Part shown: positions 1,714 to 21,811 of the stretch, piece by piece
Numbering within the stretch: the first letter of the stretch is position 1
Layout of the letters: each line of letters begins with the position of its first letter
Virus record (IMG/VR): IMGVR_UViG_3300037672_000685
Coordinates: 1 to 23,440 of that record
DNA length: 23,440 nt
Reading direction: 5' to 3' (one strand)
DNA from: a virus
Program-made: the position numbers and the translations under genes
Notes under the pieces: generated by a model
What the model saw: the letters and a program-made list of their open reading frames with translations, nothing else
What the model was told of the DNA's origin: nothing
The model's database searches: none

Positions 1714-2060
1714 TATAGTCCTCCGCCTGACAATACTCCTGCGTCCGGAGAAGCACCTACACTGCCTCCGCCAGCCATTACATTTGGAGAACCTTGCACC
1801 ATGGCGCCAAAGTCAAATGAGTCACCAACCCTTGCAATTGGTATACCCTCTGCAAATACTGTGGGAGAACCTTGATTGATCATTGCTCCATGTCCTACAC
1901 AAAATTTACCAAATTTGATCAAGTGAGGGAATGCCGGATCGCCCATTCTGTTTACCGGAATACCATTTGCAAATACACTACCTTGTGTAGCCTTTGCAGG
2001 TATCATGGGAGTACAGAGATGTCCTGTCTTTCCCATATCTCCTAATCTACATACTAACAT
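1713..2060 (-). CDS. PAAR-domain spike-tip protein (T4 gp5.4-like)
   Basis: This 115-residue protein matches the PAAR family, which forms the sharp tip of the central spike in contractile tails and type VI secretion systems. The sequence shows the repeated short beta motif typical of the family: MLVCRLGDMGKTGH at the start, then QGSVFANGIPVNRMGDPAFPH and QGSPTVFAEGIPIARVGDSF (PAAR-like blocks at about residues 26-46 and 63-83), with His and Cys residues available for the usual metal site. The C-terminus is Gly/Ser-rich. In T4 the equivalent is gp5.4 on the gp5 needle. A perfect TATAAATA late box sits five bases before the ATG, consistent with late virion expression. The 407-aa gene follows with overlapping codons. 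Confidence 0.9.
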   Translation of the reverse strand: MLVCRLGDMGKTGHLCTPMIPAKATQGSVFANGIPVNRMGDPAFPHLIKFGKFCVGHGAMINQGSPTVFAEGIPIARVGDSFDFGAMVQGSPNVMAGGGSVGASPDAGVLSGGGL

Positions 2061-2065
2061 ACAAG

Positions 2066-2073
2066 TATTTATA
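2066..2073 (-). promoter_or_regulatory. T4-type late promoter box TATAAATA before the PAAR gene
   Basis: On the - strand the sequence reads TATAAATA, then CTTGT, then the ATG of the PAAR gene. This is an exact match to the T4 late consensus, which centres near -10. The spacing would put the transcript start at or next to the A of the ATG, giving a leaderless message. Confidence 0.75.
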
Positions 2074-2093
2074 GAGTGAGTAAAGTACTACTA

Positions 2094-3194
2094 TTATAAT
2101 TTAAATTTAGAGAACTGGCCTTGTTTAACGTCTTGCTTGATACCACCAACAATGTATGATTCCACTTCTGTTTCCTGTGGTGCTACTTGTACACCCTTAG
2201 AACTCAACCAGTGTTGTGTCCATGGTAGTGGATTCTGATTTGCTGGCACATCGTATATAGGATCTAACCCTAGTGCTCTCATTCTCTTGTTGGCAATCCA
2301 TTCAACGTAGTTGCCCAACAGTTTCTCATTAAGTCCTATGATAGAACCGTCTTTGAATAGGTATTTGGCCCATGCCTTTTCTTCTTCAACACAGTCTTTG
2401 AACATCTGTATAACTGTCTTCTCTGTGCCTTTCATTGCCTTGGTCATCTCAGCGTCATCACCTTTTTGCCATGCTTTGATCACGTGTGTGGACAAGTTCA
2501 AGTGTGTTGCTTCATCTCTTGCTATGAGTGAAAGTATTTTTGCTGATCCTTCCATGAGTTTAAGTTCACCAAATGCGAATGTACAGGCGAAAGATATATA
2601 AAATCTCAATCCTTCTAACAGGTTAACAGTGACCATTGCAAGGTATAATTGTTTCTTAAGATCAATGATATCACCTTTGCCTTTGACTGTGTAGTCTAGT
2701 GCCATTCTGTTGAACTTGTCGTACTCGCTTGTTACTGATTTTGCTCTCTTTAGTATTTCTTTGTCATCTAGTATGGTATCAAAAACTTCTGCAGGATCTG
2801 AATACACGTTCTTCATGATCTGTGTGTATGCTCTCGAATGGATAGTTTCAAAGAAGTCCCAAGTAACTATGCAACCTTCTAGTTCTGGATTTGAACAATA
2901 CGGTAAAAATGCTAGTGACGGGCCTCTGCCTTGTACACTGTCTAGCAGTGTTTGATATTTTAGGTTTGATGTAAAAATATGTTTCTGTTCAGGTCTGAAC
3001 GTTTGAAAATCTGCTCTGTCTTTTTGTAGACTTACTTCTTCTGCTCTCCAGAAGTAACCCAACATGGTTTGATTCAACTTGTCAAACTGTGGATATTTGA
3101 TGTCGTCGTATCTTTGAATAGCCATGTCTTCTCCGAAGAACATTGGTTGCTTCATCCAGTCTACCTTATTCTGATTAAAAATTGTTTTTGCCAT
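2094..3194 (-). CDS. nrdB: Class Ia ribonucleotide reductase, small (beta) subunit
   Basis: NrdB carries the di-iron tyrosyl radical that starts reduction of ribonucleotides by NrdA. All metal ligands are visible: D85 (LLDSVQGR), E116 and H119 (FETIHSRAY), E194 (LLEGLRFY), and E228 and H231 (ARDEATH). The radical tyrosine is Y123, in the same ETIHSR-Y setting as E. coli Y122. The C-terminus GQFSKFKL is the expected tail that docks on NrdA. The length of 366 residues is close to the E. coli protein. The ATG lies 8 bases after the nrdA stop, so the two genes form an operon. The T4-like order nrdA-nrdB is kept, and the enzyme supplies dNTPs for phage replication. Confidence 0.98.
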   Translation of the reverse strand: MAKTIFNQNKVDWMKQPMFFGEDMAIQRYDDIKYPQFDKLNQTMLGYFWRAEEVSLQKDRADFQTFRPEQKHIFTSNLKYQTLLDSVQGRGPSLAFLPYCSNPELEGCIVTWDFFETIHSRAYTQIMKNVYSDPAEVFDTILDDKEILKRAKSVTSEYDKFNRMALDYTVKGKGDIIDLKKQLYLAMVTVNLLEGLRFYISFACTFAFGELKLMEGSAKILSLIARDEATHLNLSTHVIKAWQKGDDAEMTKAMKGTEKTVIQMFKDCVEEEKAWAKYLFKDGSIIGLNEKLLGNYVEWIANKRMRALGLDPIYDVPANQNPLPWTQHWLSSKGVQVAPQETEVESYIVGGIKQDVKQGQFSKFKL

Positions 3195-3202
3195 GTTATC
3201 TC

Positions 3203-5653
3203 TTAAATTGTGCAGGCGTCACAGTTTTCATCATCTGTGTCCGGCTGGGTACTTATCGTTTGTTCAGATTTTTTAACCTGTCCGTTTACGTGACCGTTAA
3301 CGTGACCGTTTACGCTCTCTGGCAACAATACGTCCTCACCTTCCTCTTCTTGTGATACTGCGTCCAACCCTGCTGGTTGAAGTTCTTCTTCCTCTCCTTT
3401 GAAGTCATACGTGTTCTGATAGTACGACGTCTTCCAACCCATTTTGTATGCACTTAACATATCTTGGGCCATTACTGATAATGGCACTTCGTTCTTTTCA
3501 TACTGTAATGGATTGTATGACCAGTTGCCTGATATGGCTTGGTCAAAATACTTCTGCATCATTGCAACAATATTGATGTAACCTTCGTTGCTCGTCATAT
3601 CCCATAGTAGGGTGTAATTGTTTCTCAGTTTAGGGAATTCTGGAACGATTTGTTTCAGCGGTCCTTTTTTACTTTTCTTGATCGACAGTAACGCTCTCGG
3701 CGGTTCGATACCGTTCGTTTCGTTACTAACAACGGAAGAACTTTCCGAAGGCATCTGTGCGGACAATGTCGAATGCCTTAGTCCGTGCTTGGCTATGTCT
3801 TTTCTCAAGGCTTCCCACGCCATTCTCTGTTTGTGTGGTACAATCTTATCTACATCTTTTTTGTAGTGATCAATTGGCAGTAAGCCATCTGCGTATTTTG
3901 TTCTTTCAAATCCTTCACACTTGCCTTTTTCTTCTGCAACGGCACAACTTGCTCTCAACAAGTTATACTGGAATGCTTCTGAAAGTCTGTCCACCAATTC
4001 CCATGCTTTTGGATCAGTGTACTTGACCCCATTCTTTGCTAGGTAGTGTGCAAGTCCAATATATCCTATTCCTAGACTTCTTCTTCTCTTTGTGCTAACT
4101 TCTGCCGCCTTCACTGGATAGTCTTGATAGTCAATTATCTCGTCCAATGCTCTCACACTTAGGTCACATAAGTTTTCTAGTTCGCTTAATTCTTTTATTG
4201 CACCAACGTTCACTGCTGAAAGAATACACAATGCAATCTCTCCCTTGTCATCGTCTATGTGTTGTATTGGTGTTGTGGGTAATGTTATCTCTTGGCATAG
4301 GTTAGACATCTTGACTTGGTCCTTAAACGAAGAGTGGCTGTTGCAGTGATCTATGTTCATGATATAGATACGACCTGTTTCTGCTCTCTCTTTTAAAAGA
4401 TCAAAAAATATGTCCTGTGCTGAAACTACTTTCTTTGGTATTGATTTATCTTTTTCATACTTCAAATAAAGTTCGTCAAACTTGTCTGTTCCGAAAGCGT
4501 CATACAAACCAGGAGCAAGGTGAGGACTGATCAAACTGATTGTTTCATCGTGCATGAATCTCTCATAGAACAATTTAGACAGTTGTATGGAGTAATCCAT
4601 TCTTCTAACTCTGTTGTCTTCTGTGCCTTTGTTGTTCTTTAGAACTAATATGTCTTCAATCTCAGGATGCCAAATAGGAAAATGGACAGTTGCGTTTCCG
4701 CCACGTACACCATTCTGTGTGCAACATCTCACAGTCGATTCGAATTTTTTTAGGAATGGAATGACTCCTGTGTGTGCTACTTCACCACCTCTGATTTTAG
4801 AATTGATTCCTCTGATACGTCCTGCATTTATTCCTATGCCTGCTCTTCTGGCAACATACAATCCAATCGCCATGTCACTTGAAAAAATACTAGGCAATGA
4901 ATCATCACTGTCTACTAGAACGCAAGAAGCAAATTGTCTTATAGGTGTTCTTACACCAGACATAACTGGAGTTGGAATATTAATTTTGTGTAATGAGATT
5001 GCGTCATAATACTTTTTAACATAACTCATTCTTGTTTTTGTTGGATAGTTTGCAAACAGTGTGGCAGATATCATCATATACATATCTTGAGGAGTTTCGT
5101 ATAGTGTACCTGAACTTCTGTCCTGTACAAGATACTTGTCTACTACCTGTCTGATGCCTGCGTAGGTAAACTTGAGGTCTCTGGATCTGTTGATCCATGT
5201 GTTTAGTCTTTTTATATCTGAGGTTGTGTACTGTTCTAGTATTGCAGGGTCATACACACCCAGGTCAATGTTTCTTTTTATCAATGCTCCCAACGGCGTG
5301 TACTCATACTGACCGTGTGCTTCTTTACGTACATCATATAAAAGTAGTCTTGCCGCGGCATATTGATAATTTGGTTGTTCCAGAGAGATTAAATCGTTTG
5401 CTGATCTTACTAGAACGTTCTGTATGTCCTTGGTAGTCATACCATCATAGAACTGTATGTTAGAATTCATTTCTATCTGCGACGAAGATACTCCTAGGAG
5501 TCCGTCACAGGCTTCTTCAACCACAAAATGAATCTTGTTAATGTCTAAAGGCTCTAACCTTCCATCTCTTTTCTTGACGAGAATATTATTTGGGTTAGTT
5601 GACATTGATTTTTTTATTTTATTTCCTGAATTTTTTACTTGTGTAATAGACAT
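3203..5653 (-). CDS. nrdA: Class Ia ribonucleotide reductase, large (alpha) subunit
   Basis: NrdA reduces ribonucleoside diphosphates. An ATP-cone (about residues 24-110, beginning ILVKKRDGRLEPLDINKI) indicates allosteric control of activity. Catalytic residues are present: C244 (FASCVLVDS) and C476 (ALCILSAVN) as the redox pair, N451, C453 and E455 (NLCQEITLPT) at the active site, and the Y744-Y745 radical-transfer pair (KTSYYQNT). The C-terminal CDACTI holds C811 and C814, which thioredoxin or glutaredoxin would reduce. Just before it is an unusual flexible arm with three VNG(H/Q) units. At 816 residues it is longer than E. coli NrdA, mainly through that arm and the N-terminus. A second Met (M17, at 5605) is a possible alternative start and keeps the ATP-cone whole. 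Confidence 0.98.
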   Translation of the reverse strand: MSITQVKNSGNKIKKSMSTNPNNILVKKRDGRLEPLDINKIHFVVEEACDGLLGVSSSQIEMNSNIQFYDGMTTKDIQNVLVRSANDLISLEQPNYQYAAARLLLYDVRKEAHGQYEYTPLGALIKRNIDLGVYDPAILEQYTTSDIKRLNTWINRSRDLKFTYAGIRQVVDKYLVQDRSSGTLYETPQDMYMMISATLFANYPTKTRMSYVKKYYDAISLHKINIPTPVMSGVRTPIRQFASCVLVDSDDSLPSIFSSDMAIGLYVARRAGIGINAGRIRGINSKIRGGEVAHTGVIPFLKKFESTVRCCTQNGVRGGNATVHFPIWHPEIEDILVLKNNKGTEDNRVRRMDYSIQLSKLFYERFMHDETISLISPHLAPGLYDAFGTDKFDELYLKYEKDKSIPKKVVSAQDIFFDLLKERAETGRIYIMNIDHCNSHSSFKDQVKMSNLCQEITLPTTPIQHIDDDKGEIALCILSAVNVGAIKELSELENLCDLSVRALDEIIDYQDYPVKAAEVSTKRRRSLGIGYIGLAHYLAKNGVKYTDPKAWELVDRLSEAFQYNLLRASCAVAEEKGKCEGFERTKYADGLLPIDHYKKDVDKIVPHKQRMAWEALRKDIAKHGLRHSTLSAQMPSESSSVVSNETNGIEPPRALLSIKKSKKGPLKQIVPEFPKLRNNYTLLWDMTSNEGYINIVAMMQKYFDQAISGNWSYNPLQYEKNEVPLSVMAQDMLSAYKMGWKTSYYQNTYDFKGEEEELQPAGLDAVSQEEEGEDVLLPESVNGHVNGHVNGQVKKSEQTISTQPDTDDENCDACTI
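3275..3313 (-). repeat. In-frame 12-base repeat coding VNGH in the nrdA tail
   Basis: Three near-identical 12-base units of the form GT(A/T)AACGGTCAC/CAG encode VNGH-VNGH-VNGQ followed by V (residues 781-793). They sit in the flexible linker between the reductase core and the C-terminal CxxC pair. The unit number could change by slippage without breaking the frame. Confidence 0.85.
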
Positions 5654-5817
5654 ATTTATCGGATCTTCTGTTTCTGTTTGAGTTTATGAATTCTTCATTG
5701 TTTCGTTTTGTGCATTTGAAAACGTCGCTGTGCATTTTTTATTATGTACTAATATTACGACATAAAAATATTTTTGTCTACTGAAAAACGTGGACAACTT
5801 ACGATTTTATAGAACTA
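5653..5817 (-). promoter_or_regulatory. nrdA upstream region with GATAAATA box overlapping the ATG
   Basis: This is an AT-rich stretch of about 165 bases between the fibre gene and nrdA. The - strand reads GATAAATATG, so a late-type box shares its last base with the annotated nrdA ATG. If used, that box would start transcription inside codons 2-3 and favour the second Met at 5605. A delayed-early or middle promoter further upstream is more usual for nrd genes. I see AT-rich runs but no clear -35/-10 pair, and no obvious terminator hairpin here. Confidence 0.3.
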
Positions 5818-7485
5818 TTATGCGAAATGTGTAACTTGGTAATCCATTGTAGCGGCCGAACCAAGGCTGGTTGTTGTGAACTTGATGATGACTGTTTCAT
5901 TTCCTGCAGTCGAATCAAGGTTATCCATCACAGCAGTTAGGGTAACCCCTGTGTCGCCGTTGCTGTCATTGAAAGTGTCGTCATGTGATACAAAACTTCC
6001 TGAGGCATTCACAATCAATTGTCCAACTCTGAACCGTGTACCTCTGTTAATTTTGTAATTTACAATTACGGACTTGCCGTTTAGTGCTGGCAGACGAATA
6101 CCTGTTGTGGTGGCCGTAGATGTGTTGTCTGCCAAAGTAACCTGTCTAGTTGTTTCTGTCTGTACACCTATACCTTGTATTGTTGGTAAAGGATTTAGTG
6201 TTGTTGCTCTAAGTTGTGAACCTTCGAAATAGTCTGCAATCGATTGGCATTCATCTGTTTCAAAGTTTAATATCGGTGATTCCGCAATGGCCGAACTTGC
6301 TGGTTGGAAATTTGTACTAACATCTGAGGCAAAGTAGTTGCCAAAACTTACAAAGTTTCTCACGTCGCCTGTGCCTGCGTCTGCACCTGCTGAACTTCCC
6401 ATCACTTTGATAGCATTGTTGCCTATTGTTGCGAAGTGTGAATTTAATACTTTTACATTTTTCGGTCCAACTGTTAATCCTGCTGTGGATCCATCCACTT
6501 GTTCTCCAACTATGACTCCATGATATGCCACACTGAAATGACACTGGTTCATCGTTACCCCTGTCACATCGTACGACACATCAACAAGTCTAGCAAATTT
6601 TGTGAATTCACATCTGTTAAAGTGAACGTTAGAACATTTCAGAGCATTTGTACTTCTAACTGTGATTCCTTTTGATGTCGAAGCGTCTGCACCATTCGAT
6701 GCATAAGTTCCTTGGAACTTGCAGTTATCAAAATACACATTGGCCGCGGTGTCTATGGACACACCACCATATGCTTCTGCGTTTTGGAATGTTATTCCCC
6801 TAATAAAAATATTTCGTGGAGTCGTTGCACTGCCGTTTAGTGTTCCACCTTCCTTACCGTACTGCGTAGCACCATCAAGGTTTCTACCCAGAGCGTCTTG
6901 GAATCTCGCGACAACATTATTTGATCCGATTTGTCTGATAACTGTTTTGTCCATTCCTTCGCCTTCTAGTTCTGCGTAAGGTGGAATTTCTAATGTCATT
7001 ATTGTTGAACCATCTCTAGTATCTGTCCCACCTACTTTGTACTCACCTGCAGGAAAGAATAATACTCTTCTTGATCGTTCGTCTGTTTTATCTGTGTCTA
7101 TGTAAACTTCGTCTATGGCTCTTTGTATCGCCGCTGTGTCGTTGGTTGTACCATCACCAATTGCACCAAAATCTTTTACTGATACTTTGTCATCTAATTT
7201 CTTTTGTATAGTTCTCTTGAAAGCACCTGCTGTGCCGGTCACTATCGGTGTGCCATCTCCTAGGTATCCTTTGTAGACATATTGCAGTGCGGCGCTGAAA
7301 GCCGTTGATCCAGTTGTTACAACTTCTGTATTTCCCACTGCTGGTGCACCGTCGGCCACTGTGCCGTTTCCGATGTATAATCTTTGTTCGTCTACTACCC
7401 AACCAAGTTCTCCAGCCGCTAATTGCGGTAGATCAGTTGCTTTTCCACGTCTGTGTTGTATTCTTGATATCTGTACTATTGCCAT
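5818..7485 (-). CDS. Tail fibre/tailspike with pectate-lyase-like beta-helix
   Basis: This 555-residue protein begins with a short head of the kind found on marine T4-like tail proteins (ISRIQHRRGKATDLPQLAAG, then ELGWVVDEQRLYIGNG; about residues 6-41). Residues about 101-127 carry the pectate-lyase-3/glycoside hydrolase hallmark VSVKDFGAIGDGTTNDTAAI. Repeated short strand-turn segments with Asn, Cys and Phe ladders then suggest a right-handed beta-helix to about residue 400. The last 130 residues look like a beta-rich tip or trimerisation region. Such proteins bind, and sometimes cut, host surface polysaccharide. I cannot point to a confirmed catalytic pair, so a binding-only role is possible. 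It has its own AT-rich promoter region, divergent from the SGNH-like gene. Confidence 0.87.
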   Translation of the reverse strand: MAIVQISRIQHRRGKATDLPQLAAGELGWVVDEQRLYIGNGTVADGAPAVGNTEVVTTGSTAFSAALQYVYKGYLGDGTPIVTGTAGAFKRTIQKKLDDKVSVKDFGAIGDGTTNDTAAIQRAIDEVYIDTDKTDERSRRVLFFPAGEYKVGGTDTRDGSTIMTLEIPPYAELEGEGMDKTVIRQIGSNNVVARFQDALGRNLDGATQYGKEGGTLNGSATTPRNIFIRGITFQNAEAYGGVSIDTAANVYFDNCKFQGTYASNGADASTSKGITVRSTNALKCSNVHFNRCEFTKFARLVDVSYDVTGVTMNQCHFSVAYHGVIVGEQVDGSTAGLTVGPKNVKVLNSHFATIGNNAIKVMGSSAGADAGTGDVRNFVSFGNYFASDVSTNFQPASSAIAESPILNFETDECQSIADYFEGSQLRATTLNPLPTIQGIGVQTETTRQVTLADNTSTATTTGIRLPALNGKSVIVNYKINRGTRFRVGQLIVNASGSFVSHDDTFNDSNGDTGVTLTAVMDNLDSTAGNETVIIKFTTTSLGSAATMDYQVTHFA

Positions 7486-7493
7486 GTTAATGT

Positions 7494-7501
7494 TATTTAT
7501 T
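7494..7501 (-). promoter_or_regulatory. Late-type box AATAAATA before the tail fibre gene
   Basis: The - strand reads TATAATAAATA, so both a TATAAT hexamer and an NNTAAATA box are present. Eight bases separate the box from the fibre ATG, giving at most a leader of a few bases. Confidence 0.4.
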
Positions 7502-7517
7502 ATAGGCAGTTGCAGTT

Positions 7518-7525
7518 GTTAAATA
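7518..7525 (+). promoter_or_regulatory. Late-type box GTTAAATA before the SGNH-like gene
   Basis: GTTAAATA is followed by six bases (GGTTTA) and then the ATG at 7532. This is the same compact geometry seen at several - strand genes, here on the + strand. No Shine-Dalgarno sequence fits in the spacer. Confidence 0.45.
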
Positions 7526-7531
7526 GGTTTA

Positions 7532-8221
7532 ATGCCAAATATAATAGTATCAAACGGATGCTCTTACACAGAAGAAGCATACCTAGGGCCACAGGATAGA
7601 TGGACTACTAAATGTGGCATAAGCACTAATCTTGCACACGGCGGCGGGTCTAATGAACGTATCTTTCACACAACAATTGAACACCTTAACAATCACACAG
7701 TTGACACCTTAATTATAGGGTGGACCAGTCCAGATAGATTCATGTTGCCTAATGCTAATGGCAGTAGAATAGTTGGCACACCAATACACACATTTGATGA
7801 AAACTTAGGCGGAGATTATAGCGACTACTCAAAATTTTATTACAAGAACTGCCATAACAGTTATACTAGTCTAGAAAGAACTTTGAATTATATGTTACAT
7901 CTACAAGATTATTGTAAGCAGAAAAGAATAAAATTATGGTACTTCAACGCACTCTTGCCAGATATCGATGACAAGTCTTTAGAAAATTACTCAAAAGATG
8001 CATTCATGTCAAAAGAAACAGAAGACATGATGCGAATGGGTGTGGTCTTCAATAAAAACAAATTACTGAAATTGATAGACAAACTAGACAAAGATATTTG
8101 GATAGAAAAGTTTTGGTATTCCATGCAGTCACACTGTAAAGATTTTCCTTTAGAGAAGGAAGGACACCCTGATATAGATGGTAGTGACCATTGGGCAAAT
8201 CTTGTTAAGAAATATCTATAG
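7532..8221 (+). CDS. SGNH/GDSL-hydrolase-like protein (GCSYT type)
   Basis: This 229-residue protein starts IIVSNGCSYTEEAY, the N-terminal block of a phage and bacterial group related to SGNH hydrolases in which GCS(Y/F)T stands where GDS would be. A second block near residues 34-41 (LAHGGGSN) fits the Gly/Asn oxyanion loops, and the C-terminus has GHPDIDGSDHWANLV, a HP..G..HWA pattern like the catalytic His block. The family acts on esters or acyl groups, often on polysaccharides. With Cys in place of the nucleophile context, activity is not assured. A second GCSxT protein is encoded at 20385-21122. The stop codon shares the palindrome CTATAG with the nuclease stop on the other strand. Confidence 0.6.
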   Translation: MPNIIVSNGCSYTEEAYLGPQDRWTTKCGISTNLAHGGGSNERIFHTTIEHLNNHTVDTLIIGWTSPDRFMLPNANGSRIVGTPIHTFDENLGGDYSDYSKFYYKNCHNSYTSLERTLNYMLHLQDYCKQKRIKLWYFNALLPDIDDKSLENYSKDAFMSKETEDMMRMGVVFNKNKLLKLIDKLDKDIWIEKFWYSMQSHCKDFPLEKEGHPDIDGSDHWANLVKKYL

Positions 8222-8938
8222 AATTTTCTTGTAATACTCTTCTAGTTTAGCATACCATTTACCAACCCATTGATCATAGTTGTCTATCTCAAATGTTTGA
8301 TATTCGTTGGCCTGCGTACAGATGAACATACGTCCATTCTTTATCTGTGTGCCGTACTGTTTGTTGTGTGCTTCTGAGTATGCTACCAATTGGAGGTAGT
8401 AATCGTCCACCCACTCTTTCTTTTTCAATCTACGTGATTGTTTGAAATCCATTATGGCCGGTTCTCCCTTGTAAACACCAACCAAGTCTGTTGTGCCTGC
8501 ATACAATTCTGGATAGTACAAAGAAACTTCTGATCCCCATACTTCACTGACATCGTTTAATCCGTTGTCTATTATGACATTGGCCATTGCGTGTGCCTTT
8601 TGATGTATGAGATTTGATCCAGGTTTTCTTTCTTTGCCTTTCACGTGCTTCTCTAACGAGTTGTGCATCACTGTTCCAATGTTTGCCGACTCTGTCGTGA
8701 TCTGTTGTGCCTTTTCCGCACCTATTCTCTTACGCCATGCGTGTAGGTGTGTCATGTCCTTGGTTGTTGACAACACCGTTGTCACACTGGGCACCTGTCT
8801 TCCGTCTGGTGTCTCATAGTGTCGCTTGTGATTTTTTGTCACCCTCGACAATTCTCCGTACGGGTACTTTTGGTAATAGGTTATTCCCTTGCTCTTTAAA
8901 ACGTCTTCGGATATGTTCATAAGCATAATTATACACAT
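8216..8938 (-). CDS. PD-(D/E)XK exonuclease, RecB/Cas4-like fold
   Basis: The protein is up to 240 residues and shows the ordered motifs of RecB-type nucleases: GTVMHNSLEKH (H92), an acidic residue in GSEVSL (E137), AGTTDLVG (D151), IMDFKQSRR (D164 and K166 of the D-x-K core), and YLQLVAY (Q183, Y187). These bind a metal and cut DNA, and marine T4-like phages commonly carry such a nuclease for DNA processing or host genome degradation. The first Met at 8938 touches the ATG of the divergent radical SAM gene. Met-5 (8926) and Met-7 (8920) are better candidates, since a TATAAT hexamer at 8928-8933 would start RNA near Met-7. I do not see the Cys cluster of Cas4/AddB iron-sulphur nucleases. Confidence 0.88.
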   Translation of the reverse strand: MCIIMLMNISEDVLKSKGITYYQKYPYGELSRVTKNHKRHYETPDGRQVPSVTTVLSTTKDMTHLHAWRKRIGAEKAQQITTESANIGTVMHNSLEKHVKGKERKPGSNLIHQKAHAMANVIIDNGLNDVSEVWGSEVSLYYPELYAGTTDLVGVYKGEPAIMDFKQSRRLKKKEWVDDYYLQLVAYSEAHNKQYGTQIKNGRMFICTQANEYQTFEIDNYDQWVGKWYAKLEEYYKKIL

Positions 8939-8956
8939 ATGGGCATCTCAAAGCAA
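8928..8956 (-). promoter_or_regulatory. Possible sigma70-like promoter for the nuclease gene
   Basis: On the - strand TTGCTT (8951-8956) and TATAAT (8928-8933) are 17 bases apart, and TATAAT is seven bases from the Met-7 ATG. The -35 match is weak (three of six), so this is tentative. The -35 element would lie inside the coding start of the radical SAM gene. Confidence 0.35.
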
Positions 8957-11476: not shown

Positions 11477-11484
11477 TATTTAGT
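11477..11484 (-). promoter_or_regulatory. Late-type box ACTAAATA before the 290-aa gene
   Basis: ACTAAATA is followed by AGTTT and the ATG at 11471, the same five-base spacing as the perfect TATAAATA copies. The box lies in the short gap after the upstream gene's stop. Confidence 0.5.
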
Positions 11485-12014: not shown

Positions 12015-12225
12015 ACCTTATTCTTTTATTTAAAGCATATTGAACGTCTGTGTCAAGTTTTTTCCTGACCAGTATGCTTTTGTCAGCCAAAAGTTTGGCC
12101 AAATGAATCTCTTCTGGTTGTAAAGTGGTGTTTCTAAAGTATGGTAAATCAAACACCTTCTTGAGTAGAGCGATCTCTGGATCGGTCATGAATACTCTAA
12201 CTCCTGGTAATATCTGTATTAACAT
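11980..12225 (-). CDS. Unknown 81-aa protein, overlaps the next gene
   Basis: This small protein has a basic helical end (KRIRFAKYGFKKKQK). It overlaps the following 175-aa gene by 35 bases in another frame. There is no clear Shine-Dalgarno and no NNTAAATA box at the usual distance, so it may depend on read-through from the 101-aa gene 22 bases upstream. The product starts MLIQILPGVRVFMTDPEIAL; a second Met (M13) would give a shorter protein beginning MTDPEIALLKKVF. No family is recognised. Confidence 0.65.
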   Translation of the reverse strand: MLIQILPGVRVFMTDPEIALLKKVFDLPYFRNTTLQPEEIHLAKLLADKSILVRKKLDTDVQYALNKRIRFAKYGFKKKQK

Positions 12226-12247: not shown

Positions 12248-12553
12248 CTAACCGGGCATTTTCATCAACAACACTACCATCGTAGATAGTAGTCCTGCTA
12301 TCACTGTTCCTGCTGTTGCGATTATTGTAGTTCTAGATGACTTCTGTCCAACCAACATATCTTCATTCATCCTGGACAGTCGTATCTCGATCGCAGACAG
12401 CCTGTCGTGTAATCCTTTGTATCTTTCTGAACAAAGGTCCACGTGTGCTTCTAGGTTCTGTTTTTCTAAATCTGTTGTACTCATATATCTTTTTAAATCT
12501 CTTTTGAGGATTCGTACCTCCGTAATTAGAGCCTGTAGATGAGCCTGAGTCAT
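12248..12553 (-). CDS. Coiled-coil protein with C-terminal membrane anchor
   Basis: In this 101-residue protein, residues about 3-66 carry a heptad-like pattern with many charged residues (for example HDRLSAIEIRLSRMNEDM), and residues about 75-97 form one membrane helix (TTIIATAGTVIAGLLSTMVV) ending in KMPG. The layout resembles XhlA-type holin-associated proteins and other phage small membrane proteins that act in lysis. T4-like phages normally use a different holin, so the lysis role is only a suggestion. Cys41 lies in the coiled coil. The leader is about 50 bases to the neighbouring gene and contains TATAAA on the - strand, but no clean late box. Confidence 0.75.
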   Translation of the reverse strand: MTQAHLQALITEVRILKRDLKRYMSTTDLEKQNLEAHVDLCSERYKGLHDRLSAIEIRLSRMNEDMLVGQKSSRTTIIATAGTVIAGLLSTMVVLLMKMPG

Positions 12554-12602: not shown

Positions 12603-13073
12603 TTATTTATTCTGAAAACCTGAATATGTAAAGTATGTGTTTTTTAATTTTGCTTGTATTGTAAGAAATGTGTTTGTTGGATTTGTAGCAGTTTCCTTGC
12701 AGAAACTAACAACAGGCACCAGATCAAAATCACTGATCAGTGAGCCTACTTTGTTGTCCATGGTTGCGTACACCTCCTGTTGCTCTGTGAAGAAATTGAA
12801 AGTCCAGTGGCTCTGTTTGCCCTCATAGAACTCGCCAAAGTGTGTGTTTGCAATGACCTCATCTTTCCTTACGGGTGAGTCCTTGTAAATTATGTTACCA
12901 CGCATCTGTAAAAGTTGTATCAGTGTGGTAAAGTTGGAGTTCTGATTTCTTGCCACGGCAAGTGTCTGTTTGTCATGCACCACATCACCAGACAAGGTCT
13001 TGAACGGAAACTTTTGATTCAAAGGACCGTTTTGTGTTATGTCTACCAGTGTGTGAATACGATATAGGTACAT
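12603..13073 (-). CDS. Unknown 156-aa phage protein
   Basis: The protein begins MYLYRIHTLVDITQNGPLNQ and has a mixed alpha/beta make-up with several Phe/Tyr-rich strands (GEFYEGKQSHWTFNFFTEQQ). Proteins with a similar 'YRIHTLVDIT' opening are common unknown genes in marine T4-like phages; I recall no function. I chose ATG at 13073 over the in-frame TTG three bases upstream because it sits six bases after a CTTAAATA box, matching the spacing used by neighbouring genes. No signal peptide is evident. The transcript would start right at the ATG and is separated from the upstream gene by a terminator. Confidence 0.8.
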   Translation of the reverse strand: MYLYRIHTLVDITQNGPLNQKFPFKTLSGDVVHDKQTLAVARNQNSNFTTLIQLLQMRGNIIYKDSPVRKDEVIANTHFGEFYEGKQSHWTFNFFTEQQEVYATMDNKVGSLISDFDLVPVVSFCKETATNPTNTFLTIQAKLKNTYFTYSGFQNK

Positions 13074-13076
13074 CAA

Positions 13077-13101
13077 AGATATTTAAGTCGTAAAAAAAGG
13101 G
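13077..13101 (-). repeat. Copy 1 of a 25-base promoter-terminator repeat
   Basis: These 25 bases match 21787-21811 with one mismatch. The block joins a CTTAAATA box to the U-tract of a leftward terminator. Sequence on both sides differs, so the block looks copied or jointly selected. Confidence 0.8.
13080..13087 (-). promoter_or_regulatory. Late-type box CTTAAATA before the 156-aa gene
   Basis: CTTAAATA is followed by TCTTTG and the ATG at 13073. It directly follows the U-tract of the terminator, forming a compact stop-then-start cassette. Confidence 0.55.
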
Positions 13102-13508: not shown

Positions 13509-13570
13509 TTTAAATCCTCCTTGTTTCTGATTAAATTGGCATTGTCACCGCTCAGGTGACAACTTGCATT
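13509..13570 (-). promoter_or_regulatory. Structured 5' leader with strong Shine-Dalgarno
   Basis: The leader of the 119-aa gene holds a perfect hairpin at 13542-13562 (TTGTCACC/GGTGACAA, five-base loop) and AAGGAGGA at 13515-13522, six bases from the ATG. A 5' hairpin near the transcript start often protects mRNA from decay, as known for T4 gene 32 and other phage messages. Confidence 0.75.
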
Positions 13571-13578
13571 TATTTATA
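13571..13578 (-). promoter_or_regulatory. T4-type late promoter box TATAAATA, 119-aa gene
   Basis: This is an exact late consensus on the - strand, 62 bases before the ATG. Unlike most boxes here it leaves room for a leader of roughly 57 bases. Confidence 0.75.
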
Positions 13579-14320: not shown

Positions 14321-14326
14321 TGGGCG

Positions 14327-15172: not shown

Positions 15173-15177
15173 ATAGG

Positions 15178-15185
15178 TATTTATA
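15178..15185 (-). promoter_or_regulatory. T4-type late promoter box TATAAATA, 281-aa gene
   Basis: TATAAATA is followed by CCTAT and the ATG at 15172. The whole divergent gap is 20 bases, so any promoter for the + strand gene at 15193 must overlap this box or lie within the 281-aa gene. Confidence 0.72.
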
Positions 15186-15192
15186 GAAACAT

Positions 15193-16230
15193 ATGCAACG
15201 AAATTTTATTCTAACCGATCTAATGAAAACAGGCGAGAATGATCTGTATGAAAAGTTTATCAATATGCATACTTTCAAGGATCAAACGTTTGAGTGTACC
15301 TCTGAATATTATATGCTACAACACTATGACCTAGATTCGTATGATAGAAAGTTTGCCATCATAGATAGATCAAAGGCGGGAGAACAACACCCGTCACACA
15401 ACGCAGAATACAGACAGGAGTTGGAACGTAGGAGAGGCTTATTACACAGTCAGGGATTTACTTTTATACTTGCAACACCATGGGAATCCAAAGCAAACAT
15501 AGACCAAATGCCATTGTATCCAAAGCACGTTTCAAAACAAGCAAATGAGATACTATGGTCGGGTGGAGTGTCATGGTTTTGGTTCTATATGTACAACAAA
15601 CACAAAGACAGCAAATTCAATTTTGATCATTCCAATAAAATTTACAACTTCCTTTATCTAAACAAGCAACCAAGATCTCACAGAGAAAAATTGTACAACA
15701 AGTTATTTGATAAAGGCATCCTTGATAATAGTTTGCACACCAAGTGGCCAGAAAGAAAACTGCCTGAGGAGTATGAACTGCCATGGGCACAGGACTATCC
15801 GCCATATGGCATGGATCAAGACATATATGAAAAGCCATACAACGACACTGCTTGTAGTATCGTTTCAGAAACCAATGACAACAATCACGAAGTGTTCATG
15901 ACAGAGAAAATATGGAAACCAATCATAGCACAACAACTTTTTATAGTGCATGGCAATCACTTGTATCTGCAAAGATTGAGAGAAATGGGTTTTAGGACTT
16001 TCAACAACTACTTCGAGGAAGCATACGACCTAGACAAAGATCCCGATATGCGAATTGATACTATTGTTGATGTGTGTGATAGGTTACGTGATGCACCGTG
16101 GCAAGACTTCTACCTACAGAGTAAGGCACTGAGGCAACACAATTATGATAAATTTTTTCACAAAGAAAATTTAGGAAATGAAATCAATAAAACTTTGAAT
16201 CTATTTCTGGAATTTGCTGACAGAAGTTAA
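15193..16230 (+). CDS. Glycosyltransferase-like protein
   Basis: In this 345-residue protein, residues 152-171 read NFLYLNKQPRSHREKLYNKL, and residues about 223-275 include SIVSETND, then VFMTEKIWKPIIAQQLFIVH and a GFRTF-N-Y-F stretch. This E-K block with a following hydrophobic strand resembles the nucleotide-sugar site of GT-B glycosyltransferases (fucosyltransferase/exostosin-like) and recurs in unknown proteins of marine phages. I rate this as a fold-level resemblance. The first ATG (15193) leaves a 20-base divergent gap; a second ATG at 15223 is possible. The 3' end overlaps the convergent 403-aa gene by 30 bases. Confidence 0.6.
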   Translation: MQRNFILTDLMKTGENDLYEKFINMHTFKDQTFECTSEYYMLQHYDLDSYDRKFAIIDRSKAGEQHPSHNAEYRQELERRRGLLHSQGFTFILATPWESKANIDQMPLYPKHVSKQANEILWSGGVSWFWFYMYNKHKDSKFNFDHSNKIYNFLYLNKQPRSHREKLYNKLFDKGILDNSLHTKWPERKLPEEYELPWAQDYPPYGMDQDIYEKPYNDTACSIVSETNDNNHEVFMTEKIWKPIIAQQLFIVHGNHLYLQRLREMGFRTFNNYFEEAYDLDKDPDMRIDTIVDVCDRLRDAPWQDFYLQSKALRQHNYDKFFHKENLGNEINKTLNLFLEFADRS

Positions 16231-17412: not shown

Positions 17413-17417
17413 GACAA

Positions 17418-17425
17418 TATTTATG
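17418..17425 (-). promoter_or_regulatory. Late-type box CATAAATA before the 403-aa gene
   Basis: CATAAATA is followed by TTGTC and the ATG at 17412. The box overlaps the stop codon of the upstream 246-aa gene. Confidence 0.6.
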
Positions 17426-18161
17426 GGGTTAGTTTATAGTTGGCTTCTACCTCAAGGCGGCTTAGACCTGCTTGTAGACCGTTTAAACCTAGTGCTATAC
17501 CCTTATGTACATCGTCTGCTAGATCTAAAGGACTGTCTATGTTATTCTTAATGTTAAGCCAATGTGCCAATATAGTTTCCTGACTTTCAAGCCATCTGTT
17601 ATGATCTTCTATACTGTAAGTGTACCCTATCTTTTGAAATTCGTCAACCGTTGCCTGCGGTGAATCATACATCACTGACCAATTGAACACCTTTTCTATT
17701 TCTGGTATTCGTTTGATATCTTTGAAGTTGTCATCTGATAGTTTATATAACCATTCTGCTACCGCCGATGCTATAGGATTCTTACTTGACTTGCTCCATA
17801 GTTCTTTCTGCCATGATATCCACGAGTCTTTCCAGCCGTATTTTACAACAGGTTCATTGCCGAGGGCCTGTAAGTTTTTGTGGAACCAATTCAACAATAA
17901 CATTTCTCTATGCTTGTCAATGTAGTTCTGTATTACTGTGTCTTGATCTCGTACAAGATGTTTAATAGCATTGTAGTCCTCACTGATGACAAGTTTAGTA
18001 CCAGGAGTTCTATCTGCATAATGTAAAATGTTTATGATTTGTTTTTCATCAGAGTGAGATCCAGCATCATGATAAGTCGTAGTGCTACCAGATGTTTTGC
18101 CAATGAGTTTCATGCTGATGTAACTGTTGTTGCCACCACTAGGTGCAATTAAAAATATCAT
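17421..18161 (-). CDS. Unknown 246-aa protein coupled to the amidinotransferase
   Basis: The ATG overlaps the amidinotransferase stop (ATGA), so the two genes are translated as a pair. The protein opens MIFLIAPSGGNNSYISMKLI, a hydrophobic strand followed by a Gly/Asn/Ser loop, placed where a P-loop would be but lacking the usual GK(S/T). This resembles degenerate P-loops of some sulfotransferase-like phage proteins and the GPQGSGNH loop of the gene at 19786. The rest is rich in Trp and Tyr and mostly helical (for example KYGWKDSWISWQKELW). I do not assign a function; partnership with the amidinotransferase is suggested by the coupling alone. Confidence 0.78.
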   Translation of the reverse strand: MIFLIAPSGGNNSYISMKLIGKTSGSTTTYHDAGSHSDEKQIINILHYADRTPGTKLVISEDYNAIKHLVRDQDTVIQNYIDKHREMLLLNWFHKNLQALGNEPVVKYGWKDSWISWQKELWSKSSKNPIASAVAEWLYKLSDDNFKDIKRIPEIEKVFNWSVMYDSPQATVDEFQKIGYTYSIEDHNRWLESQETILAHWLNIKNNIDSPLDLADDVHKGIALGLNGLQAGLSRLEVEANYKLTP

Positions 18162-19225
18162 GAAATGTAATCCTCTCTACCACCTTCACGGACAAGATCC
18201 AGAGAACAACAGTGTAATCCGCCATCCCAAAAGTATCTGTGCCTCAATGGAACAATGATTGGTTCTACTTGGTGTTTCTTAAGGAAGTCAAATACCTCTT
18301 TGTTGTAAGATGATACCAGCATACATTCCTCAGATACGCCTAGTGTGTTTATGTCAAATACAGTTTCAGCACAATAGCCAACCCAATGGTCACACCACTC
18401 ATTTATAAATTTGTGAAGTTGTTCGTTGTCTTGTTCACCTTCTATCCACCATCTGCCATTTACAAGATTCTTCTCTTGTATCCAGTCTTTCATTTGAGGG
18501 TGCATCCAGCCTTGTTCACCAAGTTCTAGCCTATCCCATTTAGCAAGTAATTCTTTTTCTTGTGTTGGAGATTCTCCAACTCTCATGAATGCTCCTGGTT
18601 TGATAAAACTTATGATTCCGTCTGTGTGTCCTACCTCATCTGTTTGTACGATCTCATACCCTTGCTGTTTCCATTTGTCCACAATATGATTGAACATGGG
18701 TCTGTCAGGATGTACGAAACCTTCTTCTCCGTCAGCAGGCATAATGATGTGTTTGCCCAGTTTAACACTGTTGGCTCCCGATATCAGTTCGTGTCCTTCG
18801 AAGGACGCACCACCCGGACCATACACCTCATTGAATAAGTCCACCAAACAATCTTCATGTACTATGTCTTTCATGTAGTCATAGACTTCATGAGTGTTTT
18901 GTTGGTAACAGGTATCACCCATTGTTAAAAATATATCTCGAGGTTGTAAAGGAACGTGAGGTATTTGTTTTTTGTTACTTAAAATATGCTTCTGTAATGG
19001 TGCAGGTTGGAACACTTGCACTCCTAGGCCTTCTAGCACTCTTTTAAACTCTGCCATATCTTCGTTTGTCTCTCGAAGTATCTTCTGCATAGGTCCTTTT
19101 ATCTTTTCATTTGTTATCCAGTCAAAGGTATCCTCCGCGAGGCCTTGTCCTATTACTACCGATTTAAGTTTTTGAAATGGGGAGTGTGTGCTGATTCTGA
19201 TCTTGTTAGTCGTCAATAAAGTCAC
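18158..19225 (-). CDS. Amidinotransferase, pentein fold (AGAT-like)
   Basis: This 355-residue protein fits the glycine/inosamine amidinotransferase branch of the guanidine-modifying pentein superfamily, which moves an amidino group from arginine to an amine through a Cys adduct. Seen motifs are LQPRDIFLTMGDTCY (93-107), EVGHTDGIISF (197-207, catalytic H200 and D202 candidates) and YFWDGGLHCCSLDLVREG (331-348), where C339 aligns with the nucleophile of human AGAT (IHCSTLD). The start is GTG at 19225, overlapping the 99-aa gene by 20 bases. The product might be a guanidino compound or a modified metabolite; the acceptor cannot be told from sequence. Arginine deiminase or dihydrolase activity remains possible. 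Confidence 0.85.
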   Translation of the reverse strand: MTLLTTNKIRISTHSPFQKLKSVVIGQGLAEDTFDWITNEKIKGPMQKILRETNEDMAEFKRVLEGLGVQVFQPAPLQKHILSNKKQIPHVPLQPRDIFLTMGDTCYQQNTHEVYDYMKDIVHEDCLVDLFNEVYGPGGASFEGHELISGANSVKLGKHIIMPADGEEGFVHPDRPMFNHIVDKWKQQGYEIVQTDEVGHTDGIISFIKPGAFMRVGESPTQEKELLAKWDRLELGEQGWMHPQMKDWIQEKNLVNGRWWIEGEQDNEQLHKFINEWCDHWVGYCAETVFDINTLGVSEECMLVSSYNKEVFDFLKKHQVEPIIVPLRHRYFWDGGLHCCSLDLVREGGREDYIS

Positions 19226-19505
19226 CGTCCTTGATCTTGAGAACGTTGTTTTTTATATGCTGATTTTCTTTTATCCTTGCTACACCCTTAGAAAATTTAC
19301 TAGAGTCCATATTCTTAATTGAAGAGTGGAATCTTTTTTCCAGTTTATAAGCAGTCTCAGAATCAAAGTTCTCTCTAATGTATGTTAATAATCTAATAGC
19401 AGACTCAATGACGTGAGATGCACGACTCTCAACGATATTTTCCTTGTCTTTCGAAAAGGATACGTTGCTCAATTCTTCTAATAAACTGCGTGTGATCTTC
19501 TTCAT
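19206..19505 (-). CDS. Unknown 99-aa helical protein
   Basis: This is a small, charged, all-helical protein (EELSNVSFSKDKENIVESRA and further amphipathic helices) with no membrane segment or metal motif. It is the first gene of the transcript that continues into the amidinotransferase, which it overlaps by 20 bases. An AGTAAATA box lies five bases before the ATG, consistent with a leaderless late transcript. The C-terminus ends KIKDGDFIDD. I recognise no family. Confidence 0.78.
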   Translation of the reverse strand: MKKITRSLLEELSNVSFSKDKENIVESRASHVIESAIRLLTYIRENFDSETAYKLEKRFHSSIKNMDSSKFSKGVARIKENQHIKNNVLKIKDGDFIDD

Positions 19506-19510
19506 AATGC

Positions 19511-19518
19511 TATTTACT
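19511..19518 (-). promoter_or_regulatory. Late-type box AGTAAATA before the 99-aa gene
   Basis: AGTAAATA is followed by GCATT and the ATG at 19505. The six-base core and five-base spacing match the other compact promoters. Confidence 0.5.
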
Positions 19519-19573
19519 CTTATTGTATAGCATACTTACTGACTTTACAACACAGATAATGGTAAATTGGAAT

Positions 19574-19789
19574 TTAGTTATTTTTAACGCCGAACTTACT
19601 AAATTTATACCATGCCCTCTCATGAAAATAATATAAGAAAACTTTTGTGAGAACTTCTATGCCAGCAATCGAAGATGCCCAATCTAATTTTCCTGTGATA
19701 AGCCATGCTATCAGAAAAGTATCTGCACTTGCTATTATTCTCCAACTGATTGTTTTTGCGATATGTCTTTTTTTTTCAACTTGTTTCAT
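19574..19789 (-). CDS. DUF2061 membrane protein, distal copy
   Basis: This 71-residue protein matches the small DUF2061 family: a basic start (MKQVEKKRHIAKTISWRIIA), two membrane segments (about 18-32 and 39-53), and the signature FHERAWYKF near the end. Bacterial DUF2061 proteins are small inner-membrane proteins of unknown function, sometimes found beside sulphate-assimilation genes. The ATG overlaps the stop of the P-loop gene (ATGA). A second, different DUF2061 protein opens the same operon at 21584-21784, so the transcript starts and ends with this family. Confidence 0.8.
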   Translation of the reverse strand: MKQVEKKRHIAKTISWRIIASADTFLIAWLITGKLDWASSIAGIEVLTKVFLYYFHERAWYKFSKFGVKNN

Positions 19790-20409
19790 TTGTAATTGAT
19801 CTTGAATTGATATTTGTCAAACTGACCTCTCCTGGCAGGTTTCACGTACTTTTTGTTGGCATCTCCATCGTCAAGTAGTTTTTGGATGTAGGCACCTGTG
19901 TTTATAGGAAAATCTAATTGCTTTGATATGCTTTTCAAATAGTTTGTGCCATACATGAAAAACAGTTCTTGACTCAGATAGTATGGGTCTTGTAATAGAC
20001 TGAGATGTTGCAGTGCCGTTGGTGCTGTGTGCTTACCTCTGCGTACTCTGAGTTGCTGTTGCTTGACTATGTTTCTATCTCTGCCAATTATTGCGATCTT
20101 TACGTTTGCATATTTCTTTGCTTGTTTGATAAAAGTGTGATACTTTGGGATAGTGAATTTAGTGCCCAGGATGAATGGACAACTTATACTAGTCACGAAA
20201 TATTTTGATTGTGTCCAATCAAACTCGCTCATCTTCTTTGGGTTTAACCAGTACGGTTGAAACACTTCTTGGTCGTGCCCTACCCATTTGTGTTTGTATA
20301 ACTCTGACCAACCAAACACATCTTTGTGATAGGAAAATATCTTACTGAATAGATGATTGCCTGAACCTTGTGGTCCTGTTATTATTAAGAGTGTAGGTTT
20401 CTGTGCCAT
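19786..20409 (-). CDS. P-loop protein, sulfotransferase-like
   Basis: This 207-residue protein starts with a strand and phosphate-binding loop, LLIITGPQGSGNHLFSKIFS (7-26), in which GPQGSGNH replaces the usual GxxGxGK(S/T). That loop type is seen in sulfotransferases and related marine phage proteins, where it binds the phosphates of PAPS. A second block, KIAIIGRDRNIVKQQQLRVR (about 104-123), resembles the strand-loop-helix with basic residues that contacts the 3'-phosphate. The assignment to sulfotransferases is inferred; a nucleotide kinase is less likely because the Walker lysine is missing. Both ends overlap neighbouring genes, so it works within the DUF2061 operon. Confidence 0.68.
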   Translation of the reverse strand: MAQKPTLLIITGPQGSGNHLFSKIFSYHKDVFGWSELYKHKWVGHDQEVFQPYWLNPKKMSEFDWTQSKYFVTSISCPFILGTKFTIPKYHTFIKQAKKYANVKIAIIGRDRNIVKQQQLRVRRGKHTAPTALQHLSLLQDPYYLSQELFFMYGTNYLKSISKQLDFPINTGAYIQKLLDDGDANKKYVKPARRGQFDKYQFKINYK

Positions 20410-21122
20410 GCTGTTATGTAACTTTCTAATTCCAAATATTGTTTTGATTCGTGGTGTAAATTAAATTCTTGTGTTTTGTGTTCCATTGACTGCCACATAT
20501 GTTTGTTTCCACAAAATGAAAACAGGTCAATGATGTTATCGTTGCTCTTGATCAGATCAAGTTTTTTGAATCCTTTGAAACCATCTATGTGCTCGTGTTT
20601 AAAATCATTGCACATATCAAACATTACGTATTTGATCTTTCTATTTTCTAGGAATGAACTCAACATTATAATTTCATTGAATGTCTTATCCCAGTAAGTT
20701 CTTATGTTTGGATTACAACCATAGTACAAGTCCAGCAAGTCACCTAGTTTATCTTTGTCGACCGTGGGATCTAGTTTTCTGTTTGGGGTTGTGAGCAGTT
20801 CTTTTCTCTGCAATGGAAACCATGTGCCGTCAATGGCATGGTCCTCTTGTCCCACTGCCAATTCCCAACGATGGGCGTATGTAATTGGTATCACCACACA
20901 ATGGGGATTGCCATTTTGTGCTATCCATTCTATCGTTGACCTACAGGTTCTTTGAAAACTGGATGCCTCTATGGCTATGTTGATTGTCTCATCACAACCT
21001 AGTTGTCTGACGAATTGTTCTGTTGGTTGCCATATCTGGGTAAAACTGCAACCGTTCAGTAGTAATTTATTGTTTGATCCACTCTGCATATAATCTGTTT
21101 GGTGCGTCATCCTGTATGTCAT
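20385..21122 (-). CDS. SGNH-like protein (GCSFT type), second copy
   Basis: This protein of up to 245 residues carries KLLLNGCSFTQIWQ (about 19-32), equivalent to the SNGCSYTEE block of the protein at 7532-8221. An Asn/Glu-containing strand follows (TINIAIEASSFQR), then a hydrophobic strand CVVIPITYAHRW (75-86), and the C-terminus has LHHESKQYLELESYI in the position of the catalytic His block. Sequence outside the motifs differs strongly from the first copy. Met-1 (21122), Met-5 and Met-12 (21089) are all possible starts; each overlaps the methyltransferase gene. A hydrolase or acyl-transfer role on a small molecule or glycan is suggested by the fold only. Confidence 0.6.
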   Translation of the reverse strand: MTYRMTHQTDYMQSGSNNKLLLNGCSFTQIWQPTEQFVRQLGCDETINIAIEASSFQRTCRSTIEWIAQNGNPHCVVIPITYAHRWELAVGQEDHAIDGTWFPLQRKELLTTPNRKLDPTVDKDKLGDLLDLYYGCNPNIRTYWDKTFNEIIMLSSFLENRKIKYVMFDMCNDFKHEHIDGFKGFKKLDLIKSNDNIIDLFSFCGNKHMWQSMEHKTQEFNLHHESKQYLELESYITAWHRNLHS

Positions 21123-21591
21123 TTAGATTGTAGTTGTACTTGTCGCAGTACTGTTGGTTCTTTTCCCTGCTCCATGCAAAGAATCTAATTTTACTTGACT
21201 CTTCATGCCATGGATGGTCGTTTCCGTATGTGTTCTGTCTCCAGTATATCCTGTCACCGGTCTCCGTCATGCTTGTTATTTTTTCTAATTGTGTTTCAAT
21301 CTCTTCTGCGGTACCAAAGTTAATACTTCCTAGGCACAAGAATACATTGAATTTTTCTTTTGGTTCAAAGTCTTCTATCGATACTGCTTCGTCTGTACGC
21401 CCCAACCCTGTGGGATCGATTCCATAAACTCTATCGCCGAACTTCTCTTTCAATGGATTGTTTCCGCAACCTATGTCTAAGATATTGTCTGTTGGGTTAA
21501 GTTTTGTCAATAGTGCCCAGCCGGAATATTTCTTGTTGTCCCAACGAGGTTTCCAGTGTGTCTTAAAATATTCTAATTCTTGCTTATTCAT
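21067..21591 (-). CDS. Class I SAM-dependent methyltransferase
   Basis: This 174-residue protein is short for the class but complete in the core. Motif I is NILDIGCGNNPLKEKFGDRV (36-55), with GIDP as the acidic strand-2 end that holds SAM ribose. FNVFLCLGSINFGTAEEIE (about 80-98) matches the post-motif region seen in small-molecule methyltransferases. A Trp/Tyr-rich C-terminus probably shapes the acceptor site. It overlaps DUF2061 copy 1 by 8 bases at its start and the SGNH-like gene by up to 56 bases at its end, so production is tightly coupled. The acceptor is unknown; a DNA substrate is unlikely because no NPPY-type motif is seen. Confidence 0.88.
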   Translation of the reverse strand: MNKQELEYFKTHWKPRWDNKKYSGWALLTKLNPTDNILDIGCGNNPLKEKFGDRVYGIDPTGLGRTDEAVSIEDFEPKEKFNVFLCLGSINFGTAEEIETQLEKITSMTETGDRIYWRQNTYGNDHPWHEESSKIRFFAWSREKNQQYCDKYNYNLNDIQDDAPNRLYAEWIKQ

Positions 21592-21784
21592 TCCTACCCC
21601 AATTAATTTTATCCCACACTCTTTCGTGTATGTAATACATGAACGTCATGAAAATGAATGCACCTGTGAGAATACCTGTGTCTAACCAATTGCCTGTGAC
21701 CAAGTAACTTATTGTAGGCCAAAAAACAATTCCTATCAATCTCCAGGATATTACCTTTGCTAGAGATCTAGTTTTGTTGTCCAT
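21584..21784 (-). CDS. DUF2061 membrane protein, first gene of the operon
   Basis: This 66-residue protein shows the DUF2061 features clearly: NKTRSLAKVISWRLIGIVFW at the N-terminus, two membrane helices (about 12-29 and 36-51), and the ending YYIHERVWDKINWG. Its identity to the second copy is limited to these motifs, so the two are old paralogs or separate gains, not a recent duplication. It is the first gene after a CTTAAATA box placed five bases before the ATG, and its 3' end overlaps the methyltransferase gene. Its role may be to anchor or serve the soluble enzymes encoded with it, which is inference. Confidence 0.88.
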   Translation of the reverse strand: MDNKTRSLAKVISWRLIGIVFWPTISYLVTGNWLDTGILTGAFIFMTFMYYIHERVWDKINWGRNE

Positions 21785-21786
21785 GC

Positions 21787-21811
21787 AGATATTTAAGTCA
21801 TAAAAAAAGGG
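21787..21811 (-). repeat. Copy 2 of the 25-base promoter-terminator repeat
   Basis: These bases match 13077-13101 at 24 of 25 positions. The unit carries the late-type box and the U-tract of the preceding terminator in the same arrangement. Confidence 0.8.
21790..21797 (-). promoter_or_regulatory. Late-type box CTTAAATA before the DUF2061 operon
   Basis: CTTAAATA is followed by TCTGC and the ATG at 21784. It would drive the five-gene overlapping operon down to 19574. Confidence 0.6.

Follow-up and report, generated by a model that had tools for sequence, protein, structure and literature searches.

The window analyzed here, the complete 23,440-base IMG/VR virus record IMGVR_UViG_3300037672_000685, contains 15 TAAATA boxes, all of which sit 5 to 62 nucleotides ahead of a plausible gene start and match the T4 late promoter consensus TATAAATA or a form of it that is relaxed at the first two positions (Table 1). 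The gap between box and ATG measures 5 bases at six sites, 6 bases at two, 8 bases at one, and 9 bases at one. The remaining five boxes, which belong to the genes starting at 12553, 13508, 22555, and 12014 and to nrdA, are leadered, with leaders that extend 16 to 57 bases past the predicted transcription start site (for nrdA, counted to its second ATG). A reading of the sequence alone, made without database searches (here, the sequence-only reading), had named eight of these sites and proposed that boxes placed so close to the ATG give rise to leaderless late messages. We find all eight, with the eight-base sequences and gaps that it gave, as well as two near-leaderless sites that it had overlooked (7485, gap 8; 22652, gap 9). 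The predicted leader of gene 7485 is three nucleotides long (AAC).

TAAATA on its own is not enriched in the window (15 boxes versus 20 expected from shuffles). The pattern TAAATA-N5-ATG, on the other hand, is observed six times versus 0.55 expected, and none of 100 dinucleotide shuffles reaches six, which bears out the earlier claim that the spacing is unlikely to arise by chance. A crude null model, in which 15 promoters are distributed evenly over the 0 to 60 bases upstream of genes, gives P of about 1e-7 for six boxes at one given gap. The same reading had described the exact spacing as occurring on both strands. Within the window this does not hold, as all six gap-5 sites are on the minus strand and only the gap-6 site at 7532, among those it named, is on the plus strand; among relatives, both strands are represented.

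Table 1. Late boxes and the phage bL12 gene in the window. The gap is the number of bases between box and ATG.
Feature	Position	Strand	Gap	Start codon and context
Late box TATAAATA	2066..2073	-	5	ATG 2060, PAAR-domain protein (1713-2060)
Late box ACTAAATA	11477..11484	-	5	ATG 11471, virion structural protein phrog_14154
Late box TATAAATA	15178..15185	-	5	ATG 15172
Late box CATAAATA	17418..17425	-	5	ATG 17412, DUF6267
Late box AGTAAATA	19511..19518	-	5	ATG 19505, virion structural protein phrog_11854
Late box CTTAAATA	21790..21797	-	5	ATG 21784, DUF2061 protein
Late box GTTAAATA	7518..7525	+	6	ATG 7532, DUF6071 protein
Late box CTTAAATA	13080..13087	-	6	ATG 13073, right after hairpin and T tract
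Late box AATAAATA	7494..7501	-	8	ATG 7485, tail spike, divergent from 7532
Late box ATTAAATA	22635..22642	+	9	ATG 22652
Leadered late box	12604..12611	-	50	ATG 12553; gaps of 43-52 in the orthologue family
Leadered late box TATAAATA	13571..13578	-	62	ATG 13508; leader with Shine-Dalgarno AGGAGG and hairpin
Leadered late box	22610..22617	-	54	ATG 22555; Shine-Dalgarno AAGGAG
Leadered late box, in upstream gene	12027..12034	-	21	ATG of the 11487-12014 gene
Box GATAAATA	5653..5660	-		Overlaps first ATG of the nrdA frame (5653)
Phage bL12 (Ribosomal_L12)	124..489	+		Named in the sequence-only reading

Gene 15172 and the gene at 15193 are divergent and lie 20 bp apart, and the TAA of the DUF6267 box doubles as the stop codon of the gene upstream of it (17421-18161). 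A hairpin scan identified a terminator hairpin with a T tract at 21806-21832 on the minus strand that ends directly before the late box of gene 21784, and a second hairpin with a T tract, read from the sequence just upstream of 13087 on the same strand, precedes the late box of gene 13073, so that in both places a putative terminator adjoins the next late promoter. Another hairpin (13542-13562; TTGTCACC...GGTGACAA) lies in the leader of the Shine-Dalgarno-led gene 13508, near the predicted 5' end of the message, and may perhaps act as a stabilizer. The tail spike (5818-7485) comprises an Mtd_N domain and a pectate-lyase-like domain. Two similar-looking short proteins are encoded at 19574-19789 and 21584-21784, the latter being the DUF2061 membrane protein.

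Box-to-start spacing and its conservation among relatives

Relatives were collected as 133 loci through two window proteins and as 80 loci through a helicase encoded elsewhere in the genome, and were supplemented with larger contigs. The plot of box-to-start distances that the sequence-only reading had suggested was made on these relatives, the window being only a 23,440-base fragment, and the distribution is not flat. In the first set, gaps of 0 to 4 bases occur 1, 1, 4, 2, and 1 times, and gaps of 5, 6, 7, and 8 bases occur 231, 104, 30, and 40 times. In a second, largely separate set, the counts at gaps 5 to 8 are 44, 49, 16, and 43, and gaps 0 to 4 are almost empty. Compared with control motifs of the same composition, the pooled 1,674 boxes display ratios of 0.09 to 0.35 at gaps 0 to 4 and enrichments of 20-fold at gap 5, 12-fold at gap 6, 3.4-fold at gap 7, and 8-fold at gap 8. 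To reduce repeated counting of orthologues, we also sorted the sites into families of similar proteins, with the two family sets kept unmerged; gap 5 was the commonest value in 22 of 87 families of the first set and 23 of 141 families of the second. A Shine-Dalgarno sequence is present in one of 52 families with gaps of 5 to 8, versus 16 of 43 leadered families. No distinctive composition was observed downstream of the start in genes of the putatively leaderless class.

Upstream regions of orthologues were extracted without selecting for the box. Exact TAAATA is found at gap 5 in all 79 orthologues of gene 15172 and at gaps 5 to 8 in all 48 of gene 11471, and orthologues of gene 19505 consistently carry the box at gaps 5 to 8 (69/69). 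Gaps of 7 to 8 are kept in eight of nine orthologues of gene 7485, and an exact box at gap 5 to 8 in six of eight of gene 22652. Gene 2060 has only two orthologues among the sequences found, with gaps of 5 and 8, the arrangement is mixed for gene 13073, and the box of gene 21784 is absent from all four orthologues found. Leadered arrangements are likewise maintained: gap 21 is seen in 35 of 40 members of the 11487-12014 gene family, and the Shine-Dalgarno sequence is kept in the orthologues of gene 13508 (16/16) and gene 22555 (10/10).

We considered whether this pattern reflects genome compaction only, with promoters squeezed beside genes that are expressed mainly by read-through or coupling, in which case the spacing would be meaningless. 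This view draws some support from the genome of the SAR11 host HTCC1062, in which the median intergenic length is 3 bases (PMC2704228), and from the 25 of 62 gap-5 boxes that abut or overlap upstream coding sequence. However, compaction alone would not be expected to produce the sharp edge at gap 5 with depletion of gaps 0 to 4, nor the constancy of exactly five bases across the 79 orthologues of gene 15172. In addition, 15 of 62 gap-5 genes in nine large contigs have a divergent upstream neighbor, so that read-through or coupling from the upstream gene is unavailable there, and in about a third, noncoding sequence of more than 40 bases precedes the box. We therefore regard compaction as an improbable explanation.

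A second alternative is that the annotated ATG goes unused and translation begins at a downstream in-frame start, which would leave an ordinary leader. This does apply to nrdA, whose listed start at 5653 is probably wrong because the late box overlaps this first ATG; the ATG that the box serves is most likely the second one, which follows 47 bases after it (window 5605-5660). Similarly, in gp13 of the larger relative G015 the box overlaps the first ATG, and it is the second ATG that stands at gap 5. As a general account, this alternative is highly improbable, since coding periodicity is seen from codon 2 in most gap-5 families: over codons 2 to 12, third positions vary most in most of 10 such families, clearest at low overall divergence, as expected if translation starts at the gap-5 ATG. 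Furthermore, orthologues align from the gap-5 methionine, and many gap-5 ATGs are annotated starts in phage HTVC008M.

The DUF6267 gene (17412) is particularly informative. Wherever it comes directly after a gene of the 19505 type (61 of 61 distinct loci), it has a Shine-Dalgarno sequence and no box, and in all 11 loci in which other genes separate the two, it has a box at gap 4 to 6 and no Shine-Dalgarno sequence. Two further loci of undefined context also show a box at gap 4 to 6 without a Shine-Dalgarno sequence, bringing its occurrence among box-bearing loci to 0 of 13. Across the DUF6267 orthologues, box and Shine-Dalgarno sequence are mutually exclusive, which constitutes a natural experiment. 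The separated loci differ in their upstream sequences and distances, which makes more than one event likely.

Predicted transcription starts and late messages

With the start site as +1, the T4 late consensus extends from -13 to -6 (PMC1524935), which places the A of an ATG at gap 5 at +1. For the T4 late box, position A(-13) has been described (PMC2988020), and a relaxed -13 position is known from other T4-like phages (PMC1524935). Among 231 gap-5 sites, 85% have T and 13% have C at -1. Of the boxes with leaders of 15 to 60 nucleotides, 67% have a pyrimidine-purine step at this distance from the box, versus 6 to 46% at other steps; because the position of these boxes is independent of the ATG, this supports the same +1. 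From this signature, we infer that transcription in the marine lineage starts at the sixth base after the box.

Two larger relatives, G015 and G016, have helicase genes 87% and 62% identical, respectively, to that of contig G003, which links them to the window lineage. They encode gp55, gp23, gp20, gp18, gp17, gp13, and gp19. Their gp55 matches (E values of 7e-47 and 1e-43) were obtained with a hidden Markov model that includes jumbo-phage gp55. The presence of gp55 and of T4 virion genes in these relatives indicates that the window lineage belongs to the T4 superfamily. None of gp23, gp20, gp18, and gp17 was found within the window itself, and T4 core genes, which the larger relatives yielded, had no match in its nearest contigs, most likely because these fragments cover another part of the genome. 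The genes gp33 and gp45 (the sliding clamp), both carried by HTVC008M, had no match in the lineage contigs examined; many contigs are fragments, hence such absences carry little weight.

With a probability of roughly 0.87, we favor the reading that in this marine T4-related lineage T4-type late promoters give leaderless or near-leaderless late mRNAs. The boxes would be T4-type late promoters read by the host RNA polymerase together with the phage sigma factor gp55, as the profile matches in relatives suggest for this clade. Many promoters would have shifted so that +1 coincides with the A of the start codon (gap 5), and at gaps of 6 to 8 it would fall 1 to 3 bases before it. Late mRNAs of both kinds would be leaderless or nearly so and too short ahead of the AUG to hold a conventional ribosome-binding site, and ribosomes, probably as intact 70S particles, would bind the 5'-terminal AUG without a Shine-Dalgarno sequence. 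This proposal is strongly supported by the combination of spacing, start-site signature, conservation among orthologues, and the exchange of box for Shine-Dalgarno sequence in one family. The sequence-only reading is upheld in this respect, but not for every late gene. In the window, late genes 13508 and 22555 keep Shine-Dalgarno leaders, and in the marine phages examined the sheath (gp18), tube (gp19), and capsid (gp23) genes have leaders of the Shine-Dalgarno type, which suggests that only some of the late genes are leaderless. These genes, as well as genes inside operons, would remain Shine-Dalgarno-led, so that two initiation modes would coexist.

Several observations weigh against this reading. 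The start-site signature is weaker when counted at one site per family, and few families dominate the gap 6 and gap 8 classes of the second set. The genes could also be expressed through read-through or from other promoters that give leaders. Moreover, gp55 is found in the relatives and not within the 23-kb window. Finally, no clear leaderless peak was observed in a 400-kb stretch of a 1.41-Mb alphaproteobacterial genome, picked as host-like by bS21 similarity, which may not be the genome of the host.

Occurrence in other phages and ribosomal proteins

Gap-5 starts were also observed in HTVC008M (12), Mosig (six), and Melnitz (three). The pelagimyophages HTVC008M and Mosig (Kyanoviridae) share with the window lineage the same gap-5 boxes, here at gp2 and gp3, have a box at gap 5 or 8 at gp25, and encode bS21. 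In HTVC008M, 12 of 14 sites lie at annotated starts, including those of gp2, gp4, gp25, and gp3, and the 26-base spacer between the divergent gp2 and gp4 contains both boxes. In Melnitz, HTVC008M, and Mosig alike, TATAAATA is located exactly five bases before the ATG of gp2, and the spacers differ. The window lineage is nevertheless distant from HTVC008M and Mosig: no core gene was found in the window for comparison with HTVC008M, gp23 and gp17 of the relatives match only remotely, contigs of the lineage encode DnaK and SufB, and one marker gene matches the jumbo phages Atu_ph07 and Phosso. The DnaK-like and SufB-like genes were observed in contig G001 (L150:5234-7132 and L150:12079-13515).

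As in T4, whose late promoters are served by the gp55/gp33/gp45 system, boxes precede late structural genes, and the box is the same except for the relaxation at its first two positions. In contrast to the gaps of 5 to 8 at many sites of the marine lineage, boxes near genes in T4, Syn9, P-HM1, Thanatos-2, and Atu_ph07 mostly lie approximately 13 to 35 bases or more from the ATG, so that leaders are mainly longer and gap 5 shows no peak. In Phosso, gap-5 sites are few.

The sequence-only reading had connected the leaderless messages with the phage bL12, which was found only in the window and in contigs G001 and G004. This connection finds no support: bL12 is absent from HTVC008M and Melnitz, both of which have the arrangement, and was rejected as its cause. 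Among bacterial genomes, bL12 matches pointed to no close host (best identity, approximately 50%), with many alphaproteobacteria among them. The distribution of bS21 fits the trait somewhat better, as it was found in HTVC008M, Melnitz, Mosig, G002, G005, and weakly in G001, but not in T4, Syn9, P-HM1, or S-PM2, and it has been described as core to pelagimyophages (PMC7029224). It also occurs in Phosso and in Atu_ph07, whose late boxes are leadered, which rules out bS21 as a sufficient cause. The association is weak and the comparison is confounded by shared ancestry; a causal role is possible. That phage bL12 or bS21 reprograms the host ribosome to favor leaderless late messages would be an addition, and an unlikely one, to the leaderless reading rather than an alternative to it. 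We also consider it unlikely that, in a large marine branch of the T4 superfamily, much of the late program has passed to leaderless mRNAs and phage-encoded bS21 shifts host ribosomes toward them. If true, this shift would add a translational late switch to the one provided by gp55.

Both parts of the arrangement have precedents. In leaderless (TA-led) bacterial genes, a -10-type box lies approximately 10 to 12 bases before the start (Zheng et al. 2011, PMC3160421), and in the alphaproteobacterium Caulobacter such messages are common, with 375 leaderless mRNAs (PMC4117421). The boxes described here are similar in lying roughly one turn of the helix ahead of the start codon without a Shine-Dalgarno sequence, but they are phage late-sigma boxes rather than sigma-70 -10 elements and belong to a late gene program. 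Among phages, the lambda cI message, as cited in PMC9031893, likewise has a 5'-terminal AUG and no Shine-Dalgarno sequence; it stands there as a single case, whereas here a large class of late genes appears tied to a phage sigma box. T4-type late boxes have already been described in marine phages (PMC2984593). Searches of the open-licence literature turned up no account of T4-type late promoters that are leaderless, and none that joins these two known elements. One study had no success in predicting late promoters in pelagimyophages (PMC7029224), which may be due in part to promoters whose end lies only five bases from the ATG.

Phages that infect SAR11 and marine bacteria like it are very abundant. 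In such genomes, the gap rule locates late promoters and corrects start codons, and it makes testable whether a lytic program can depend in part on leaderless messages and whether bS21 has any role in it.

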